Source of the DNA: an uncultured Schlesneria sp.
Lineage (GTDB): Bacteria; Planctomycetota; Planctomycetia; Planctomycetales; Planctomycetaceae
NCBI GenBank assembly: GCA_903904835.1
Contig: CAIVEI010000005.1
Coordinates: forward strand, 1 to 44,827
Direction: 5' to 3'
Length of the DNA: 44,827 nucleotides
Shown: piece after piece, positions 1 to 44,341 of the stretch
How the letters are laid out: every line of letters begins with the position of its first letter
Position numbering within the stretch: the stretch's first letter is position 1
Made by a program: the position numbers and the translations under genes
The notes under the pieces: model-generated
Databases searched by the model: none
What the model was told of the DNA's origin: nothing
The model's input: only the letters and a program-made list of their open reading frames with translations

Positions 1-87
1 GTCTTCAATTCAAAGCGGGATCTTGTCTTCAATTCAAAGCGGGATCTTGTCTTCAATTCAAAGCGGGATCTTGTCTTCAATTCAAAG
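1..87. repeat. 24-bp tandem repeat, 3.6 copies
   Basis: Three identical copies of the 24-base unit GTCTTCAATTCAAAGCGGGA+TCTT start at 1, 25 and 49. A fourth copy starting at 73 stops after 15 bases, where a different 30-bp element begins. The array probably continues to the left of the window. Copies are contiguous with no spacers, so this is not a CRISPR array. The unit ends in GGGATCTT, the same bases that end the adjoining 30-bp element read on the other strand. This suggests that the tandem array grew from the edge of that element (inference). Confidence 0.95.
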
Positions 88-35818: not shown

Positions 35819-38014
35819 ATGGCAATTCAACGAGTCTGGCCCGGCCGCTCGGCTCCTCTTGGAGCGACCTGGGATGGCAAGGGAGTCAATTTCGCCGTGT
35901 TCTCTGAACACGCCACGCAGGTTGACCTTTGTCTGTTCGATTCTCCGCTTGCCACAAAAGAGACCGACCGCATCCCGCTGCCCGATCTGACGGACCATGT
36001 CTGGAATGGTTATCTTCCCGATGTGAAACCGGGTCAGCTTTATGGGTTCAGGGCACATGGTCCGTATGAGCCTCAACGAGGACTACGGTTTAATGCCAAC
36101 AAAGTTCTGCTCGATCCGTACGCCAAAGGGATCGGACGCGATCTGACCTGGACCGATGCCGCATTCGGCTATTGCGTCGGTGACCCGTCTGGCGATCTCA
36201 GTTTTGACGAACGAGACAACGCCGCCACCGCCCCCCTGGCCGCCGTCATCAATCCCGCATTTCCCTGGATGGGAGATAAGCCACTCCGCACCCCTTGGCA
36301 TAAAACGTTGATCTACGAAATGCACGTCAAAGGCTTTTCGTACAAAAGCCCCTGGGTGCCGCGAGAAAGCCGGGGAAAGTATGCCGGAGTTTCCTGCGAA
36401 GGTTCTCTGCGGCATTTGCGTGCACTCGGGGTGACCGCCGTCGAATTGATGCCAGTGCATCATCACGTCGATGAACGATCGCTCGTCGAACGAGGGCTAT
36501 CGAACTATTGGGGCTACAACACGCTCGCTTTTCTCGCCCCCGATCTTCGGTTTGGCTCGTCCCGTGATCCTCAGCGAACGGTCAACGAATTCAAACGGAT
36601 GGTTCGACGATTACACCGTAATGGCTTCGAAGTGATCCTTGATGTTGTCTACAACCATACCTGCGAAGGAAACCAGTATGGGCCAACGATCTCACTGAAG
36701 GGTCTGGATAATACGTCGTATTATCGAGTCGCCGATCAACCCCGTTATTACAAGGACTACACGGGATGCGGTAATACCCTGAATATGCAATCTCCCCGGG
36801 TATTACAGTTGATCATGGACAGCCTGCGCTATTGGGTTCAGGAGATGCACGTTGACGGGTTTCGCTTCGACCTGGCTGCGGCTCTAGCTCGCGAACTGCA
36901 CGATGTCGATAAGCTCGGTGCCTTCTTCGACATCATTCATCAAGATCCGATTCTGTCACAGGTCAAGCTGATCGCCGAACCCTGGGACGTCGGCCCTGGC
37001 GGTTATCAGGTCGGCAACTTCCCCGTCTTGTGGACCGAATGGAATGGAAAGTATCGCGATTGCGTCCGCAAGTTCTGGCGTGGTGACGGCCACACCGCCA
37101 GCGAATTCGCAACCAGGTTGTGCGGGAGCAGCGACCTTTACGAAGGGACAGGTCGACGCCCTTATGCCAGCATCAACTTCGTCACCTCGCACGACGGATT
37201 CTCGCTGAACGATCTCGTCAGCTACAACCATAAGCACAACGAAGCGAACGGTGAAAACAACGGCGACGGAGACAATCACAACATCAGTTGGAACTGCGGT
37301 GCCGAAGGGAAAACCGACGACTTGTCAGTACTCGAAAAACGAAAACGCCAGAAGCAGAATTTCATTGCGACGCTGATGATCTCACAAGGAGTCGCAATGC
37401 TCCGTAGCGGCGACGAATTCAGTCAGTCGCAAGAGGGGAACAACAACGCCTATTGCCAGGACAATCCGATCAGTTGGCTGCGCTGGAAACTGACCGACGA
37501 AGAACAGGGGATTTTCGAGTTCACCAGAAAAGCGATCGAGCTCTGGAAAAGCCAACCGGTCCTTCAACGTCGAAAGTTTTTCCAGGGCCGGATGATTCGC
37601 GGTGAACTGGTTCGTGACGTCCTGTGGCTAACGCCCGAGGGCGAACAGATGACCGACTCTGACTGGAACAAACACTACACCCGCTGTCTCGGAATGCGGT
37701 TAGAAGGGCAGATGGACGACGAGATCGACGACAAGGGCCGCCACATCGTGGGTGATACGCTGTTAATTCTGTTCAATTCGCACAACGGCCCGATTCCCTT
37801 CCTGATGCCCCCGCACGCCGAATCCGAATTCTGGCAACCAGTCCTCGACACCGCGACGGATCGACCATTGAAACGACTGCTGGAACAGCAGCCCTATCCA
37901 CTACAGGCTCATTCGCTCGCCGTCTTAAAACTAAACCGCCCGAAACCAAAATTGCTGGCACGAGCCAGATCGGTAATCCATCGAGTTCTGGAAAAGAGCC
38001 GACGTTCACAATAA
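35819..38014 (+). CDS. glgX: Glycogen debranching enzyme GlgX
   Basis: This 731-residue GH13 enzyme hydrolyses alpha-1,6 branches of limit dextrins in glycogen breakdown. The N-terminal CBM48 begins [22 protein letters not shown]13 motifs are [11 protein letters not shown] (region I), VDGFRFDLA with nucleophile D351 (region II), LIAEPWDVG with acid/base E387 (region III) and VTSHDGF with D459 (region IV). [12 protein letters not shown] is typical of GlgX. Length is near the family norm of 660-730. ATG 35819 has AGG close and GGAG 13 nt upstream. No other glycogen gene is seen nearby. Confidence 0.95.
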
Positions 38015-38504
38015 ATCCGGCACAGCCGGTTCGTGCGCGTCGGGAGATGGGTTGAGAAAAGGAAGATTGTTCGCGCGTTGAGAAGTTGGCTCTTCGCGTG
38101 TGACCGCAGAAGCTCTCGGAAAAAAGGGGGGGCGGGCGTTCATTTTTCGAAAGAGGCCTGAAGGGCCGTCACAAACCAGCCAAGGGCAGAGCGACGCGGC
38201 GACAGCCGCAAAGCGCCGCCCTGGGTCCTCATGCGTTGATATTTCCAGCCCTGTTAAGGGCGACACAAACGGTCTCATCAACAGAAAAGCTGGAATAACC
38301 GACTTGCATCACAGAGCGGCGGCTTCCAGCCGCAGAGGCAATTGCAGAATCGAGAGACGGTGGCTGGAAGCCGCCTCGCTTTCATTGACACAGAAAGTGG
38401 GTACCACGGTTTTACCGTCTTCGGTAAGGCCGTGCTCTTCCGACACCTTATCGCACAATGAAGACACGGCCTTGTCGAAGTCTCCAGAGAGGCTTCGCAT
38501 TAGA
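38015..38504. other. Repeat-rich intergenic region with hairpins
   Basis: No credible gene is present; open frames here read through palindromes. The region contains a poly-A/G tract (AAAAAAGGGGGGGCGGG near 38120). It contains a perfect 14-bp inverted repeat GGCGGCTTCCAGCC at 38318-38331 with 38362-38375. It also contains a strong hairpin at 38405-38434 (CACGG-TT-TTACCG, loop TCTT). The final 45 bp resemble the left flank of the second nested element near 41490-41535, so the duplicated unit extends beyond the palindrome itself. Confidence 0.6.
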
Positions 38505-38799
38505 CCAAAGTAGCCATCATCGCTCCGAGGCTGTCAGTTTTTGTAAGTTGAGAATGGTCAGCCACAACTCGTAGCATGGGCTTCAGCCCGTGCGACACAA
38601 CATCTTGTGCGGGCTAAAGCCCACATTACAAAAACTGACAGCCTTTCCGCGTGATGAGCATTGTTCGAGAACCTGCCAAATGACAATCCGCACGTTCTCA
38701 AATCAGAAATTCAAACGGAATATCTGCCAAGATGCTGAGGCAACGCCTGAATCGTTTTCGACGCATGCTCATCACGCGGAGCTATGATGGCTACTTTGG
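38505..38799. repeat. Long-armed inverted-repeat element E, copy 1 (interrupted)
   Basis: The ends are CCAAAGTAGCCATCATCGCT (left) and its near-perfect complement ending CTACTTTGG (right). Removing the 118-bp insert at 38528-38645 plus one 4-bp duplication gives an element of about 173 bp. Its arms of about 35 bp then match almost perfectly: 38505-38527 continuing into CGTGATGAGCA at the left, and TGCTCATCACGCGGAGC to 38799 at the right. The central loop of about 105 bp aligns in the same orientation with copy 2. Flanks are also similar in both copies (left AGAGAGGCTT.GC..TTAGA; right GA.GAA.TCC). No transposase is encoded. Confidence 0.85.
38528..38645. mobile_element. Palindromic insert A, copy 1, with 4-bp duplication TCCG
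   Basis: This 118-bp non-coding unit has perfect 19-bp terminal inverted repeats (AGGCTGTCAGTTTTTGTAA at 38528-38546 and its complement at 38626-38644). It is flanked by TCCG at 38524-38527 and 38646-38649. The interior holds a second hairpin built on GGGCTTCAGCCCG. The empty site TCCG can be read in copy 2 of element E (41555-41558). These are the marks of a MITE-like insertion; the mobilising enzyme is not in the window. Confidence 0.8.
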
Positions 38800-38806
38800 A
38801 TGAAAT

Positions 38807-38839
38807 CCTGAAACTTGACTCGTTGAGTCAAGTTTCAGG
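38807..38839. repeat. Perfect 15-bp stem hairpin beside element E copy 1
   Basis: CCTGAAACTTGACTC, loop GTT, then its exact complement. It begins 8 bp after the end of element E copy 1. No T-tract follows, so it is not a standard terminator. The core CTTGAC/GTCAAG recurs in the hairpin at 43501-43530. A different hairpin occupies the equivalent place beside E copy 2. Confidence 0.85.
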
Positions 38840-39115
38840 CCCGAAGAAGTCCAAAGCCGTGGCACTCCAAGTTTCAAACGTTAATCTGTTCATAGCGCGC
38901 AACAGTATTAAGTTACGCCGGTGTGGTCGTCTCTTCAGGCAGTCTCGTCACTCCCAACCAACGCGTAAACGGTCGACCTATTCTCAACCCGTCGTCGAAC
39001 GCACACAAACCGGCTGTGCCAGGCCAGTGGCATCTCATGATCAATTCCCGTATTTTCTCATCGGGCAAATTCTTCACGCGGTGACTCACCAGATACAACC
39101 GCAGGAGTTATCGAA

Positions 39116-41302
39116 ATGGATTTCGAGTCATTGTTAGTCGAGCCAACGCTTGAAGCGGTCGGTGCGTGGAATCGCATGTCTGTTGACGCTCTGGTCTGGA
39201 TGGCCGGTTCGTTTTCCAAGGCCTTGCCGTTATTCGGGCTGGTCTTGATTGTCACATCGATCTTTCGGCGCTGGCTTGCGCCGTCGGCCCGGCATGCGCT
39301 GTGGTCACTGGTCCTGATTCGTTTGATGCTGCCTGCGAGCGTCGCAAGCCCCGTCAGCCTGCAGCACGTCTTCTCGCTGGCGAATGTCGCAAGACTGACA
39401 AACCAGAAATCGTTGCCCGACTGGCTGATGTTTGTCAGCGGTCAGCGGGAATCAACAAACGCCAGCCCGTTGATATCCGAGAACGATACTGCTGGTTCGC
39501 TGAAGCCATCGTTGCTTCGACGACTTAGCCCAGGCCTTAAGGTCTCGATGAAGATCCTGCTTATGACGGGATCAACGCTGATGGCCATCGCGACGGCCTT
39601 TGCGTTCTGGCAAGCGGTCGGCTGGGCCAGATACAGTCGTCCGTGTACCGACCAGGAGAGTTGTGATTTGTTGAGCGAAGCACAACGTCACTTCGGAATT
39701 GGAACGACCATCCGATTGAGATCGGCCCTGCAAATCAGATCGGCAGCAACGTTCGACTGGCTATGGCCGATAATCCTTGTTCCGGAAAACGTTGATGCAT
39801 TTCCTCAGACGCAGCGCACACATCTGATCTGGCATGAAATGGCACGGATCAAACGATATGACTCTGCTAAGAGTCTCTTATTGAGCGTCGTTCGGATTCT
39901 TCACTGGTGGAACCCGATCTACTGGTGGACTCAGTGGCAATGGAAGCTGGAACGAGAACTCGCCTGTGACCGGCTGGCGGTTCAGCGACTGGGGGAACAG
40001 CAGGTCGCGGATTATCAGCAAACATTGACGCATTACATAGAAAATCCCTCGAAGCAGCCGAAGCCGATCGTCGACCCGCCCGGCTTCGTGTCATTCTGCG
40101 GTTCCGGCAAGACTCTTGGTCGAAGGATTCAGGGCCTCTCGCACGATGCGGGGCCTGAAAACCGTTTCAAATCCTGTTTTGCCTGGTGCACGGTGCTGAT
40201 TCTCGGTGTCACCGGTTTGACCGACGCTGCACGAGTCCCGCTACAGGACAGCCCGATCGAATTGCCACCGGGAACGACGTGGCATGATTCGCAGGTTGAC
40301 GAAATATCATCGAAGGAGCTGGATACTCGCACTTACGATATCAGTCAGTGTCTCAATCGGTTGCGAGAAACAGAGTGGGGTTCTGTCTCGGAGTGTCATT
40401 ATCCCTTGGAATGGATGATGAGCCAATTATCGAGTGAATTGCAATTAGCGGTCGATGGACTGCTACATCCTGTCGACTGGGTCAGATCGTCGGGATCAAC
40501 AAATCCACCGCCAATGGGTTCGAATGGATCGAGTTGCACGTTCGTCGACCAGCAAATGATTGTTCGAGCGACCGCCAGTCAACTTGATCAAATTACGCGT
40601 CTTATCTCACAATGGACTGCTAATGGTCGACCTCAAATCACGGTCGAAGTTCGTACCATCGTGACTGCCGTAGAACTCGGTCAATTGTTTCCACAAACGG
40701 GTGGTCAGATTTATAACTCAACATCGATTTCGGATGAGATGAATCCGCGTATCTCAAAACAATTTAATGCCCCATTCACGAAAACATCGAATCAGTTACT
40801 TCAGTCCCCTTTGCCCGTTTTTGTCGCGGCCCTTTTACCCGATGCTGCGAAATACTGTTGTAGTCAAGTCCAGGGAGATCAGCGTTCCAACATCCTTTTT
40901 GCTCCCAAGGTAACGATGTTCGACGCTTCAACGGCATCGGTGGGCGTTGTAAAAAAAAGTCGACCGTTCGTAACCGGTTTTCTAACCACTCATTCCGGTT
41001 TGGAACCGAAGATCGTGACCTGTCAGGATGGGATCCAATTCCAGGCAATGGCGCAGGCGGTTTCGGATACTGTCCACCTGAATGTCGCCTGCAAAATCTC
41101 GAGCATTCTCGACGTGCGAACCCGAAAATATCGGTCCGAATCCGGCGAGTTTCAAATTCAAATTCCGGAACAACAAGAATCGGTGTTCCAGTCAAACGTC
41201 GTTCTGGATGACGGTCATACACTGGTGCTGGTCCCGCTTGAACGCAACAGCCAAGGGCTATTGACGTTGTTACTGATCACTCCAAGAATCATCCACCAAT
41301 AA
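39116..41302 (+). CDS. M56 (BlaR1-like) membrane protein with degenerate HExxH, fused to secretin-like domain
   Basis: This 728-residue protein has several N-terminal membrane helices (for example ALPLFGLVLIVTSIF, LWSLVLIRLMLPA, ILLMTGSTLMAIATAFAFW) and the BlaR1/MecR1 peptidase region. The zinc motif normally HExxH reads H240-E-M-A-R244, so the second His ligand is lost. The downstream WKLERELACDR (E281, D285) and the LHWWNPIYWW context are kept. One more helix (FAWCTVLILGVTGL, about 355-370) leads to a C-terminal domain of about 340 residues. This domain resembles secretin modules: ASQLDQITRLISQW, TVEVRTIVT, LFAPKVTMFDASTASVGV and a terminal VLVPLERN...LLLITPRI. AGGAG stands 8 nt before ATG. 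No BlaI-type repressor is adjacent. Proteolysis looks unlikely; a sensing or scaffolding role is inference. Confidence 0.88.
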   Translation: MDFESLLVEPTLEAVGAWNRMSVDALVWMAGSFSKALPLFGLVLIVTSIFRRWLAPSARHALWSLVLIRLMLPASVASPVSLQHVFSLANVARLTNQKSLPDWLMFVSGQRESTNASPLISENDTAGSLKPSLLRRLSPGLKVSMKILLMTGSTLMAIATAFAFWQAVGWARYSRPCTDQESCDLLSEAQRHFGIGTTIRLRSALQIRSAATFDWLWPIILVPENVDAFPQTQRTHLIWHEMARIKRYDSAKSLLLSVVRILHWWNPIYWWTQWQWKLERELACDRLAVQRLGEQQVADYQQTLTHYIENPSKQPKPIVDPPGFVSFCGSGKTLGRRIQGLSHDAGPENRFKSCFAWCTVLILGVTGLTDAARVPLQDSPIELPPGTTWHDSQVDEISSKELDTRTYDISQCLNRLRETEWGSVSECHYPLEWMMSQLSSELQLAVDGLLHPVDWVRSSGSTNPPPMGSNGSSCTFVDQQMIVRATASQLDQITRLISQWTANGRPQITVEVRTIVTAVELGQLFPQTGGQIYNSTSISDEMNPRISKQFNAPFTKTSNQLLQSPLPVFVAALLPDAAKYCCSQVQGDQRSNILFAPKVTMFDASTASVGVVKKSRPFVTGFLTTHSGLEPKIVTCQDGIQFQAMAQAVSDTVHLNVACKISSILDVRTRKYRSESGEFQIQIPEQQESVFQSNVVLDDGHTLVLVPLERNSQGLLTLLLITPRIIHQ

Positions 41303-41411
41303 CCGACAAAATCGTTTTCGATTGTTTTCAAATCGTCTGGGTTCGATTCGTATTCCTTTCATCACAACAAATATTCAGGCAGGCGCCGCATTGTGAATTG
41401 CAATCAACATT

Positions 41412-41447
41412 GTTATCTGTAATAACATCAATGTTATCCGTAATAAC
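41412..41447. promoter_or_regulatory. Tandem pair of GTTAT-N5-ATAAC palindromes
   Basis: Two 15-bp sites, GTTATCTGTAATAAC (41412-41426) and GTTATCCGTAATAAC (41433-41447), are 21 bp apart start to start, two turns of the helix. This is the form of a double operator for a dimeric repressor. They lie 110 bp after the M56-like gene and 505 bp before the polytopic GYF gene. The regulator is unknown. An alternative is that they are simply part of the repeat cluster. Confidence 0.45.
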
Positions 41448-41535
41448 GCGAAGGCGATCAAGGAGAATCTCGTGAATAATTTTTGAAGACCGCGTCGACG
41501 CTTCCCCGAAATCGCCAGAGAGGCTTTGCCTTAGA

Positions 41536-41827
41536 CCAAAGTAGCCATCATCGCTCCGCGTGATGAGCATCGTTCGAAAACCTGACAAAATCCGATCCGC
41601 ATATTTTTCAATAAAAGTATTCAAACAAAGTCTTTGCTCCGATGCGTCAGCAACGCTTGAACCGTTTCCGACGCATGCTCATCACGCGGAGAGTTTGTCA
41701 TTTTTTGTAAGTCGAAAACGGCGTAGCACAAGCCGTAGCTGCGGCTTCCAGCCGCAGAGCAAAATGTACGGAGTGGAAGCCTCCGCTACAAAAAATGACA
41801 GCCTCGGAGCGATGATGGCTACTTTGG
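41536..41827. repeat. Long-armed inverted-repeat element E, copy 2 (interrupted)
   Basis: The outer 23-bp arms 41536-41558 and 41805-41827 are perfectly complementary. Taking out the insert at 41691-41804 restores continuous arms of about 35 bp (41536-41570 with 41676-41690 plus 41809-41827). The central loop (41570-41675) aligns with that of copy 1 in the same orientation. The left flank (CCAGAGAGGCTTTGCCTTAG) also matches copy 1. The two copies lie about 3 kb apart on either side of the M56-like gene, as direct repeats. Confidence 0.85.
41691..41804. mobile_element. Palindromic insert A, copy 2, with 4-bp duplication CGGA
   Basis: This 114-bp homologue of the insert at 38528-38645 is in the same orientation. 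Its inner inverted repeats TGTCATTTTTTGTA (41696-41709) and complement (41787-41800) are perfect; the extreme left end has drifted. It is flanked by CGGA at 41687-41690 and 41805-41808. The interior hairpin is TGCGGCTTCCAGCCGCAG, different in sequence from copy 1 but equivalent in place. It sits in the right arm of E, whereas copy 1 sits in the left arm. Confidence 0.78.
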
Positions 41828-41836
41828 AAGAAGTCC

Positions 41837-41852
41837 GATGCGCTGTCGCATC
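41837..41852. repeat. Short hairpin beside element E copy 2
   Basis: GATGCG, loop CTGT, CGCATC: a perfect 6-bp stem starting 10 bp after the end of element E copy 2. It lies in the same relative place as the unrelated 15-bp hairpin beside copy 1. Confidence 0.6.
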
Positions 41853-41951
41853 ATTAACTCACCTCATTCCAACCGCAGTAAAAACGCATCAACTCGACCA
41901 ATCGAACCGGGTCACTAACGAAAGTTACTCAACGAAACACAGGAATCAGAA

Positions 41952-43370
41952 ATGGCCAATTCTGACGGTAATGTGCGTTTTTTCGTTCGAATTCGTGGAA
42001 AAGTTCACGGACCTTTTTCGGTCAAACAACTGAGCGCGCTGCGCAGTCAAGGTCGGTTCAGTGAGACAGACGAAGTCTCGCTGGATGGAAACACCTGGGA
42101 ACCCGCCTCAACGCTCGAACAACTCTTCGCATCGTTGCAAAAGCCTTCCCAGACGAAGTCCAGGGAAATGAATGCGGAACCAATCCCGGTATCTGCGTCC
42201 AGCACATCGAAATCTCCCACGCCAGCTCGGGATGCGAGCGCAGTCTGGCATTACAGCGTCAACGACGAACAACTCGGCCCGGTCTCGTTAAGCGAGCTCC
42301 GGCAAATGCTTGACCTCGGTCGATTAACGCTTCGCGATCTGGTGTGGCGACAAGGGATGTCGGAATGGTGTACCGCATCCGAAGTCAAGGAACTTAATCC
42401 CATTCCGGCAGAACTCGCGGATCTGGCGGAGATCGTCGACAATGACGAACCAAAACGCCGAACAAAATCCAAGTCGATCAAGAACGTTTCTGACAACGAC
42501 GTGGCCGAGACGAACGAACCCTTAGCGCCTCACTTTTTCGATCAATTGCTGAGTCTTCTCCGGGAAAGCATTAGCGAAAACTACGTTTCCCCAGAAGGAA
42601 AAGGTTCCATCGAAATCGGGCGGTGGGCCATTTATCTGTCGATCCTGGTCAACATCGCAATCGCGCTTTACGCGGGGTTTGTGTTAAAAACACCAGAAAT
42701 CGCTCTGGGGGGAATCGGATTCGTCGCCATCGCACTGATGCTGCAATATAGCGCCATCAAATCATGTGGAGCGATCGGCCAATTGTTGCGGGCCAAAACA
42801 TTGCGGATGTCTTCGACAGCGTTTTTCGATTCGATAGTGATCATGCTGTTTATTGGAGGGATCGTCGCACTCGTCGGGTTTTCGATCTATGCGTATCGGT
42901 TCAAGGAAATCCCGATGTATTTCGTTGGATTCGGCATTTTCATCCTTTGCGAACATCTTGCCATGACGCTGCTTCATCCTCACGCCATCGGTATTACGAT
43001 TTCACCCAGGGCAAGTACCGGAGAAGAGGCGATCGCGATTCTGACATTTGTCATGATGTTGCCACTCCGTTTCGTCGCGGCAGTGTTCGCTCTCGGTTCG
43101 GTCGTCTCGACCATCGGCAGCATCGTAGCGTTGGTGATGTTGCTTTTCGCAAACACAAAAAGCGAGGACGACATTGTCGGTTCCGCTGGCATCGCCGCCG
43201 GGTCAATGGCCTCGCAGCTAATCTGTGCCGCGTTTCCGTTCGGCATGTATGTCTATTTCGTCTTTGCCTACCTGATCATCGACGTCGTTCGTTCGATCCT
43301 CGTGATACCCGACAAACTCGACCAGTTGTCGCGATCAAGTCTCAGTAGCCAGAATCGAGCGGTCGAGTAA
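41952..43370 (+). CDS. Twin GYF_2-domain polytopic membrane protein
   Basis: This 472-residue protein has two N-terminal GYF_2-type domains, at about 9-60 (RFFVRIRGKVHGPFSVKQLS...TWEPAS) and 98-147 (VWHYSVNDEQLGPVSLSELR...EWCTAS). A charged linker follows, then six or seven membrane helices from about residue 227 (WAIYLSILVNIAIALYAGFV, FFDSIVIMLFIGGIVALVGF, FVFAYLIIDVVRSILVI). The GYF pair should be cytosolic. Compared with the protein at 10612-12177, the GYF pair is retained but the rest is replaced by a multi-helix membrane domain. ATG is preceded by AGGAATCAGAA. Function is unknown; the upstream region carries element E and the tandem operator-like sites. Confidence 0.85.
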   Translation: MANSDGNVRFFVRIRGKVHGPFSVKQLSALRSQGRFSETDEVSLDGNTWEPASTLEQLFASLQKPSQTKSREMNAEPIPVSASSTSKSPTPARDASAVWHYSVNDEQLGPVSLSELRQMLDLGRLTLRDLVWRQGMSEWCTASEVKELNPIPAELADLAEIVDNDEPKRRTKSKSIKNVSDNDVAETNEPLAPHFFDQLLSLLRESISENYVSPEGKGSIEIGRWAIYLSILVNIAIALYAGFVLKTPEIALGGIGFVAIALMLQYSAIKSCGAIGQLLRAKTLRMSSTAFFDSIVIMLFIGGIVALVGFSIYAYRFKEIPMYFVGFGIFILCEHLAMTLLHPHAIGITISPRASTGEEAIAILTFVMMLPLRFVAAVFALGSVVSTIGSIVALVMLLFANTKSEDDIVGSAGIAAGSMASQLICAAFPFGMYVYFVFAYLIIDVVRSILVIPDKLDQLSRSSLSSQNRAVE

Positions 43371-43684
43371 CAAGATCATGTGCAGTGAGTCGAGTTCCGA
43401 GGCAATCTCTGGTTGAGAGTCTGTTGCAAACGGCTTTACGTCGGCGTTCGCCCCGTAGGTTTTTTCTTCCAGAATTCATGGGTTCCACTGAAAACCGTGC
43501 CACTGCTTGACGGGCTTCCGTCAAGCAGTGCCGAAGTACAAAACGGGTATTCGGCAGCAGAGATTTGCAGAGAGTCACCACGAAGGACACAATGAACACA
43601 AAGATGGAATTCGATGACCTTTCCAATTTAGCAACCTAACAACACCAGGTTGAAAGATGGTATTACGAATCAGCAGGTATCATC
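43371..43684. other. Intergenic region with dispersed repeat words
   Basis: There are about 310 bp between convergent genes and no credible ORF. It contains the hairpin at 43501-43530 and the phrase AGAGTCACCACGAAGGACAC (about 43573-43592), a word that recurs in non-coding DNA of many bacteria. No standard terminator with a T-tract is seen. Confidence 0.45.
43501..43530. repeat. Perfect 13-bp stem hairpin
   Basis: CACTGCTTGACGG, loop GCTT, CCGTCAAGCAGTG. It lies 130 bp past the stop of the GYF gene. It shares the CTTGAC...GTCAAG core with the hairpin at 38807-38839. It lacks a T-tract on either strand, so it looks like a dispersed palindromic repeat rather than a terminator. Confidence 0.85.
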
Positions 43685-44341
43685 TCAAACGTTAGCCCGT
43701 TGACGGCGGCAGGCTCGGGCCACCAGTGCGAGGCTACCGAGACCCAGCAGGGCCAGCGTCGAAGGCTCAGGTACGGGCGAGCTGATGACGACATTAGTAC
43801 CCTGAACATTGAGAGTCGAGTCAGAATAATTGCTGGTGGTAATCGGAGTGTTGAAATAGAAATTCAATTTTCCAATGTACTCGACCCCCGAAAACGTCAG
43901 TGTGGAGGGAAAAGTAGTGAAATCGCTCGCCTGGAAGACCTGGCCCATATGGTTCGCACCTTCCGTGTCGGTTCTCATGTTCGATGTGAGGATCGGCGTT
44001 CCGGTCGCATCCAGGAACTTGAAAGATCCGGTGCTGTTAACGTAACCGGGTGGGTTGGAGAGGGAAGAGGCCTGGATCTCCGAAAAGTTCGTCACCGTGA
44101 TCGTCTGTCCGGGGAGAAATTGAATCTTAAAATCGAATGTATCCCCAGCCGCAATCGCAACATCATAGCCACCACTAAAAGGTGGCGAGCCTGAAAAGTA
44201 GAGATCGTTCGACTGTTTCTCCTTGGAAGTTGAAAGGTCCAGTGTTTGACTAACGTCAATCGTCCCTGCCGTCGCGGATTCGCAAACCATCACAACGGTC
44301 ATCACTGCCAACGCCAAACAAACAACGAACTTCTTCATCAT
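43685..44341 (-). CDS. PEP-CTERM sorting-domain protein
   Basis: This protein of about 218 residues is exported. The signal peptide is MMKKFVVCLALAVMTVVMVC...ATAG. The middle is beta-rich (DTFDFKIQFLPGQTITVTNF, FSGVEYIGKLNFYFNTPI). A C-terminal PEP-CTERM tail reads VPEPSTLALLGLGSLALVAR-ACRRQRANV, that is VPEP, hydrophobic helix, basic end, recognised by an exosortase-type system. ATG 44341 (GGAG 5 nt upstream) is preferred to 44359. The last codons and stop fall in a CTAACGTT repeat core, so the very end may have been altered by a repeat. Function unknown; surface or extracellular matrix proteins carry such tails. Confidence 0.88.
   Translation of the reverse strand: MMKKFVVCLALAVMTVVMVCESATAGTIDVSQTLDLSTSKEKQSNDLYFSGSPPFSGGYDVAIAAGDTFDFKIQFLPGQTITVTNFSEIQASSLSNPPGYVNSTGSFKFLDATGTPILTSNMRTDTEGANHMGQVFQASDFTTFPSTLTFSGVEYIGKLNFYFNTPITTSNYSDSTLNVQGTNVVISSPVPEPSTLALLGLGSLALVARACRRQRANV

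Follow-up and report, generated by a model that had tools for sequence, protein, structure and literature searches.

IS1182-type targeting of inverted repeats, and the insertion of insertion sequences (ISs) into repetitive extragenic palindromes (REPs), are already known. In those parts of the published accounts that bear on the present case, IS1272 of Staphylococcus, a member of the IS1182 family, is reported to replace its target stem-loop and to leave no target duplication, and the same account sketches a hypothetical "pathway c" in which joining occurs at the 5' side of the loop and the loop alone is duplicated (PMC5678879); REP-targeting elements, for example ISPsy8, ISPa11, ISPpu9 and ISRm22, insert specifically into these palindromes (PMC1525189); GTAG repeats have been reported from Planctomycetes (PMC3733652); and ISPse1, an IS1182-family element of Paracoccus, measures 1,653 bp, has short perfect ends and is listed with a 4-bp duplication (PMC3281130). 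The locus described here lies in contig CAIVEI010000005.1 (C5; 44,827 nucleotides, the whole stretch analysed, hereafter the window) of an uncultured Schlesneria sp. with a genome assembly of 8.18 Mb in 211 contigs; it holds two copies of a repeat, E, each interrupted by a short insert, A. In the labels used below, G denotes genomes, L loci and C contigs of the window's own genome. The evidence makes it quite probable that A is a miniature inverted-repeat transposable element (MITE) of IS1182 type, and that the transposase of the corresponding IS inserts both the IS and its MITEs at the tips of hairpins, duplicating the loop.

Without A, E is a repeat of 173-174 bp. Copy 1 (38505..38799; features are on the forward strand unless stated) is a REPIN-like doublet (REPIN, REP doublet forming hairpins) broken in its left arm by A1 (38528..38644), a 117-bp MITE with 19-bp perfect terminal inverted repeats; its arms pair as 38505-38527 with 38777-38799 and 38646-38672 with 38754-38780. 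In copy 2 (41536..41827) the right arm is broken, by A2 (41692..41804), a 113-bp MITE of a second subfamily, and the pairs are 41536-41558 with 41805-41827 and 41554-41581 with 41664-41691. Both repeats and both inserts (113-117 bp, with inverted, AGGCTGTCA-like ends) were found where the sequence-only reading had placed them; the lengths of 118 and 114 bp given there are corrected to the bounds above, with a subfamily-associated T directly after A1 at 38645. Once A is removed, the two E copies are identical at 142 of 173 aligned bases, and A1 and A2 align, as had been claimed, better in the same orientation (79 of 112 aligned bases) than in the opposite one (71 of 110).

The copies are clearly non-random: a 16-base E arm motif (at most 2 mismatches) occurs 107 times in the window's own genome versus 5 times as its reversed control, and a 17-base A end motif (at most 3 mismatches) 107 times versus 24 in the control. 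Among 32 both-ended A copies in this genome, each with at least one end from an end-motif search made blind to E, 20 occupy E hairpins, 2 border on E at just one of their sides and 10 lie elsewhere (in one of these, L191, the two ends have probably come together by chance). The 78 E arms, at ~28 bases each, make up ~0.03% of the genome. Conversely, 14 of the 29 two-armed E copies in the loci analysed were empty, 14 held one A, and one (L010) carried A in both arms. Where a single A was present it occupied the left arm in nine copies and the right arm in five, judged by loop orientation; the side is less certain for L014 and L016, in which the loops are divergent. These counts go against two outcomes that the sequence-only reading had named as refuting its view, namely that A and E never occur apart and that A keeps one fixed position in E. 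That view, of A as a MITE-like element strongly favouring the E arm, is supported, with the refinement that the preference is for the loop of the hairpin in each arm. As befits a MITE, A is short, lacks a transposase gene, has ends like those of an autonomous element, and shows a target duplication as well as orthologous empty sites.

The target duplication is 5 bp, CTCCG or CGGAG, in the IS introduced below and in copy 2, where CGGAG stands on both sides of A2 (41687..41691 and 41805..41809); these five bases are exactly the closing C-G pair and the triloop of the arm hairpin. The 4 bp originally proposed are corrected to this length. In copy 1, CTCCG on the left (38523..38527) faces TTCCG on the right (38645..38649), a match in four of five bases (TCCG, 38646-38649) that looks like 4 bp because a T sits directly right of the right end in 19 of the 32 A copies. 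Seven of those 19 lie outside a complete E site, so that the T seems to go with the subfamily, whose members can be read just as well as 118-bp elements with TCCG duplicated over 4 bp. Over all 32 copies, the 5-base flanks match fully in 6, in four of five bases in 18, and less well in 8.

Uninterrupted E copies at orthologous positions in relatives are direct proof that A was inserted at both window copies. For copy 1, L228 (G146) aligns to 38145-38527 (91.6%) and to 38646-40305 (91.8%), with a 4-bp overlap between the two alignments; E is uninterrupted, A1 is absent and CTCCG is single. For copy 2, L314 (G144; 75.7% and 86.0% on the two sides) and L315 (G142; 83.7% and 82.6%) lack A2, contain an uninterrupted E and have CGGAG once. 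The corresponding locus of G146 was unusable as an orthologue of copy 2; this genome lacks the stretch 41307-43670, which in the window holds E copy 2 and a gene (41952-43370), and has ~510 bp of partly repeated sequence instead (L312, 3172-3682).

These empty sites bear on the possibility that A entered E a single time and that an E+A composite then spread through the mobility of E. The orientation of A relative to the arm, alike in 19 of the 20 A copies in E, and the T beside the right end that many A copies have in common would agree with such a history, yet the distances among A copies and among their host E copies are uncorrelated (Mantel r = -0.085, p = 0.46, n = 14 E copies with one A; r = 0.013, p = 0.38 without the A2 copy; L010 and E copies cut by contig ends were left out of this comparison). 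A is three times less diverged than E (mean distance 0.078 versus 0.257 without A2, 0.115 versus 0.253 with it), 11 of the 14 filled E copies have an empty one as their nearest neighbour, and filled copies form no clade (mean E distances of 0.250 filled to filled, 0.233 filled to empty and 0.226 empty to empty). The T, moreover, accompanies A outside complete E sites as well, and both window copies have empty orthologues, while both arms are filled in L010. Composite spread is refuted as a general explanation and is very improbable, though it could account for a few copies; with uncorrelated histories, A has entered E repeatedly and independently. Scarcely more credible is that recombination or gene conversion carried A from one inverted arm to the other within an E: the arm plus A in L013, L016, L017 and L018 mirrors the left-arm form, as recombination between the inner arms would produce, but the two inserts of the window belong to different subfamilies (79 of 112 bases), lie in opposite orientation relative to the arm, and each have an empty orthologue.

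E itself is a REPIN-like doublet of two GTAG-headed hairpins in opposite orientation, present in many copies. Its arm consists of GTAGCC followed by the hairpin ATCATCG-CTCCG-CGTGATG; GTAGCC precedes the stem in the copies viewed from most relatives, GTGGCC or GTTGCC in some. The uninterrupted hairpin in the left arm of copy 2 (41541..41568) has the loop C(TCC)G, and an identical sequence, the uninterrupted left hairpin of E in L228, folded as DNA, forms C(TCC)G at -6.8 kcal/mol, a value reached by 1 of 200 shuffles; its counterpart in the right arm of copy 1 (38767..38794, reverse strand) differs by one base (CTATGATGG). A variable stem pair reads A-T in 63, T-A in 6, G-C in 1 and C-T in 1 of 71 distinct contexts (counts of sequences, not of independent events), so that most changes keep the stem paired. 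With at most 1 mismatch, a 20-base arm motif was found in 8 of the 15 genomes of the genus and its reversed control in none of the 15; it occurs at 78 places in the window's own genome, 203 in G144, 193 in G142, 67 in G136, 38 in G146, and 3 to 7 each in G137, G139 and G147. A family-wide search (101 genomes, 7 candidates scored in each) returned E or A only from G000, G146 and, weakly, G059; since it missed G142 and G144 with their many copies, it understates the spread. An Rfam scan of 36000-44000 gave two weak matches alone, far below the gathering scores, and E and A are accordingly not known RNA families. Further short hairpins, GAGGCTTCGCCTC to one side and TTGACTCATTGAGTCAA to the other, frame many of the E copies (for example at 38476-38504 and 38800-38840 in the window), which suggests that these are part of a larger mosaic repeat.

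The partner of A is an IS1182-family DDE transposase. A complete IS of 1,657 bp with one transposase gene was recovered in L207, the only match of a single contig scan, on a Schlesneria contig from a metagenome-assembled genome, at the same place as L210 of G146. It has an E arm on both sides and CTCCG twice, a perfect duplication, and its ends AGGCTGTCAGTGTTTGCG and AGGCTGTCATTTTTTGCA share 15 to 17 of 18 bases with those of A1 and A2 in the best pairings. The transposase (open reading frame 627-2027) scores 360.9 bits against the NCBIfam IS1182 model (NF033551; cut-off 270 bits) and exceeds the cut-offs of Pfam DUF772, DDE_Tnp_1 and DDE_Tnp_1_6; a single gene between terminal inverted repeats in an element of ~1.6 kb likewise conforms to this family. 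The occurrence, in a relative, of a complete IS that shares both these ends and this site, together with the empty orthologues, the uncorrelated histories and the doubly filled E, carries the MITE interpretation. In the window's own genome, five contigs end inside an insert that starts with AGGCTGTCAGTGTTTGCG at the E site (left ends in C10, C130, C153, C184 and C203), and two (C59 and C72) end inside the right IS end, with AGGCTGTCATTTTTTGCA on the opposite strand at the same E site; one more IS copy lies outside E, flanked by CTCAG on both C77 and C170. Junctions between an E-type hairpin and an A or IS end (at most 3 mismatches) number 36 in this genome, 26 in G142, 21 in G144, 7 in G141 and 2 in G146, and 0 to 2 in the other 10 genomes, like the controls. 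In G141, CTTCTCG-CTCCG-CGAGAAG harbours a 145-bp MITE with these ends, and G142 has MITEs of 117 bp and 145 bp, both in E; the 145-bp elements (L301, L309 and L310, from G141 and G142) represent a second MITE family with the same ends and the same site. In another genus, L226 (G067) has the inverted pair AGTAGTCATCACGCTCC and GGAGCGTGATGGCTACT, ~1 kb apart, enclosing a degenerate piece of an IS1182 transposase, so that E-type hairpins and this IS group meet there too.

Of the two kinds of transposase that the sequence-only reading had named as examples, a REP-associated Y1 transposase and an IS with 4-bp duplications, the first is not supported. Both A subfamilies have identical-type ends and different internal REP-like doublets: GTAG...TTAC of GGGCTTCAGCCC type in A1 (38571..38629, read from the sequence), a type that recurs near the Y1 transposase locus L274, and GTAG...CTAC of GCGGCTTCCAGCCGC type in A2 (41735..41789), which also flanks Y1 transposase locus L281 on either side. 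Given these doublets, and with 15 Y1_Tnp matches in the window's own genome, a Y1 (HUH) transposase was considered as the mover of A; it is very unlikely, since A is bounded by terminal inverted repeats of IS1182 type and flanked by a target duplication, and the two 145-bp MITEs of G141 and G142, with the same ends, show no such doublet in the sequence displayed. No cognate Y1 transposase accompanied by the E hairpin (at most 8 of 27 mismatches) was found in the 15 Y1_Tnp loci, of 2.0-3.4 kb, either. With different doublets between ends of identical type, the MITE seems to hold exchangeable REP cargo, amounting to a REP doublet in a MITE in a REP doublet. An inverted pair of GCGGCTTCCAGCCGC type that lacks GTAG lies just upstream of E copy 1 (38308-38385).

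Whether hairpins are targets in general was judged from IS copies found by their transposase alone, with the target ignored, at 18 places in 16 of the family's 170 genomes. In 12 of these places both ends were resolved, the remaining six (L217, L218, L221, L225, L226 and L227) lacking usable ends or flanks. The duplication matched in at least four of five bases in 9 of the 12, the stem around the insertion point surpassed shuffled sequences at p < 0.05 in 10, and the insertion point was the top-scoring palindrome centre in 8, one of them tied. Three of the 12 sites (L210, L211 and L213, the last from another genus) are E-type hairpins, whereas five of the eight top-ranked sites (L212, L214, L215, L222 and L224) are unrelated to the E hairpin; L212 reads CTGGCCGGTC-CAATG-GACCGGCC, L214 AACC-CTTCG-GGTT, and L215 GTTTCG-CGGAG-CGAAAC.

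A number of observations weigh against hairpin targeting by the IS and its MITEs. Among the 12 IS copies, L222 and L224 lie in perfect inverted repeats and have no duplication, the insertion points of L216 and L220 lack a stem (p 0.58 and 0.75), and L216, L219, L220 and L223 are not top-ranked palindrome centres; to be counted on the same side, the ends of L219, L222 and L224 were set by hand at the family pattern AGG...CCT and not at the top automatic match, and the loop length in the stem test was 5 where at least three of five bases matched and 0 otherwise. In the window's own genome, the IS at C77/C170 is not top-ranked either (p 0.14, rank 4), and of 9 A sites outside E (L191 dropped), just 2 have their top palindrome centre where A is inserted, with L171, L180, L177 and L170 at ranks 21 to 70. 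The right-arm hairpin of L315, C(GGA)G, folds less convincingly, 15 of 200 shuffles being as good, and the IS lies always one way round in E where its orientation is readable. With regard to the partner, A shares only its tips, not internal sequence, with the IS, and the own assembly contains relatives at 25-26% and not the full transposase gene; C170 carries its first codons, and the absence of the gene body is expected for a collapsed multi-copy repeat.

Several of these points would suit a transposase that reads a short sequence around CGCTCCGCG, the hairpin being incidental and carried along by the REPs. Twenty of the 32 own A copies share one site, several A sites outside E have no stem, and each of the ten duplications among the IS copies found by transposase agrees with CNNNG on one side or both. 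The IS is oriented the same way in E in 10 of 10 ends or copies (five left and two right ends in the window's own genome, G146, L211 and L213), representing at least 8 insertions, and in all five G144 loci inspected. Against recognition of a short sequence stand L212, L222 and L224, with insertions at the centres of long stems of quite different sequence, and L215, in which the whole stem is changed and the loop kept; this explanation appears possible but doubtful. Shared ends, a common site, its duplication, orthologous empty sites, repeated independent insertion and the presence of a hairpin at the site are observed; recognition of the hairpin or cruciform as such, and not of its sequence alone, we infer. 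Given the fixed orientation of the IS relative to the loop in E, some asymmetry must be read by the transposase as well, the simplest candidate being the sequence of the loop; a combined recognition, of a loop sequence presented by a stem, fits best.

In the mechanism favoured here, A would be a non-autonomous miniature of an IS1182-family IS whose transposase moves A, presumably, along with the IS itself, and places both at the tips of small DNA hairpins. The element ends would be joined on either side of the C(NNN)G loop, and the 5-bp loop, closing C-G pair plus triloop, would become the target duplication. With its hairpin present twice and inverted, E would offer two mirror-image landing sites, as occupied together in L010. 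A wider generalisation is about as likely as not: a branch of IS1182 transposases would practise structure-directed transposition into extruded hairpin tips, cutting on both sides of the C(NNN)G triloop so that the loop becomes the target duplication, and would exploit the scattered REP and REPIN hairpins, which another transposition system has made abundant, as landing pads for IS and MITEs in several planctomycete genera.

Compared with the described systems, in so far as the relevant parts of those accounts go, the partner IS resembles IS1272 in its transposase family, assigned here by NCBIfam, and in targeting inverted repeats of unrelated sequence; it differs in that, in E, the stem stays and the loop is duplicated, whereas IS1272 is reported to delete the stem-loop without duplication, and L222 and L224, which have no duplication, come closer to IS1272 (PMC5678879). 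Specific insertion into REPs is shared with ISPsy8, ISPa11, ISPpu9 and ISRm22, but in the present case the IS shares its site with a MITE of its own, and both hairpin loops of the doublet serve as sites; the consulted part of that account does not mention IS1182 (PMC1525189). With GTAG-tagged REPs and REPINs the E arm has in common a GTAG head before its hairpin and an arrangement in inverted pairs (PMC3733652); as a difference, the Y1 transposase genes of the window's own genome lie, in the locus stretches examined, without the E hairpin. Similar length, short perfect ends and a short duplication are shared with ISPse1, which differs in being listed with a 4-bp duplication; hairpin, stem-loop and palindrome go unmentioned in the relevant part of its description (PMC3281130). 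Searches of a limited library turned up neither IS1182 elements that duplicate the loop nor MITEs of such elements in REPs, and an IS/MITE pair that duplicates a hairpin loop looks new.

At the contig end of the window (1-87), apart from these elements, a 24-bp unit is repeated in 3.6 perfect tandem copies and followed by GATCCCTCGCTTGCGCGTCGGGCTAACG, which is present also near the starts of contigs C113 and C191.

The insertions appear to be cases of the loop-duplicating pathway that had been sketched as a hypothetical alternative (PMC5678879, in the part considered here). They amount to a natural experiment, in which one system of transposase and ends meets different hairpins, empty orthologues and covarying stems, and which makes hairpin-directed target choice by DDE transposases directly testable in these genomes. 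For the planctomycetes that carry them, loop duplication at hairpin tips would explain why insertions accumulate in a REP doublet at two points that mirror each other, and how repeats come to be nested in the spaces between genes.

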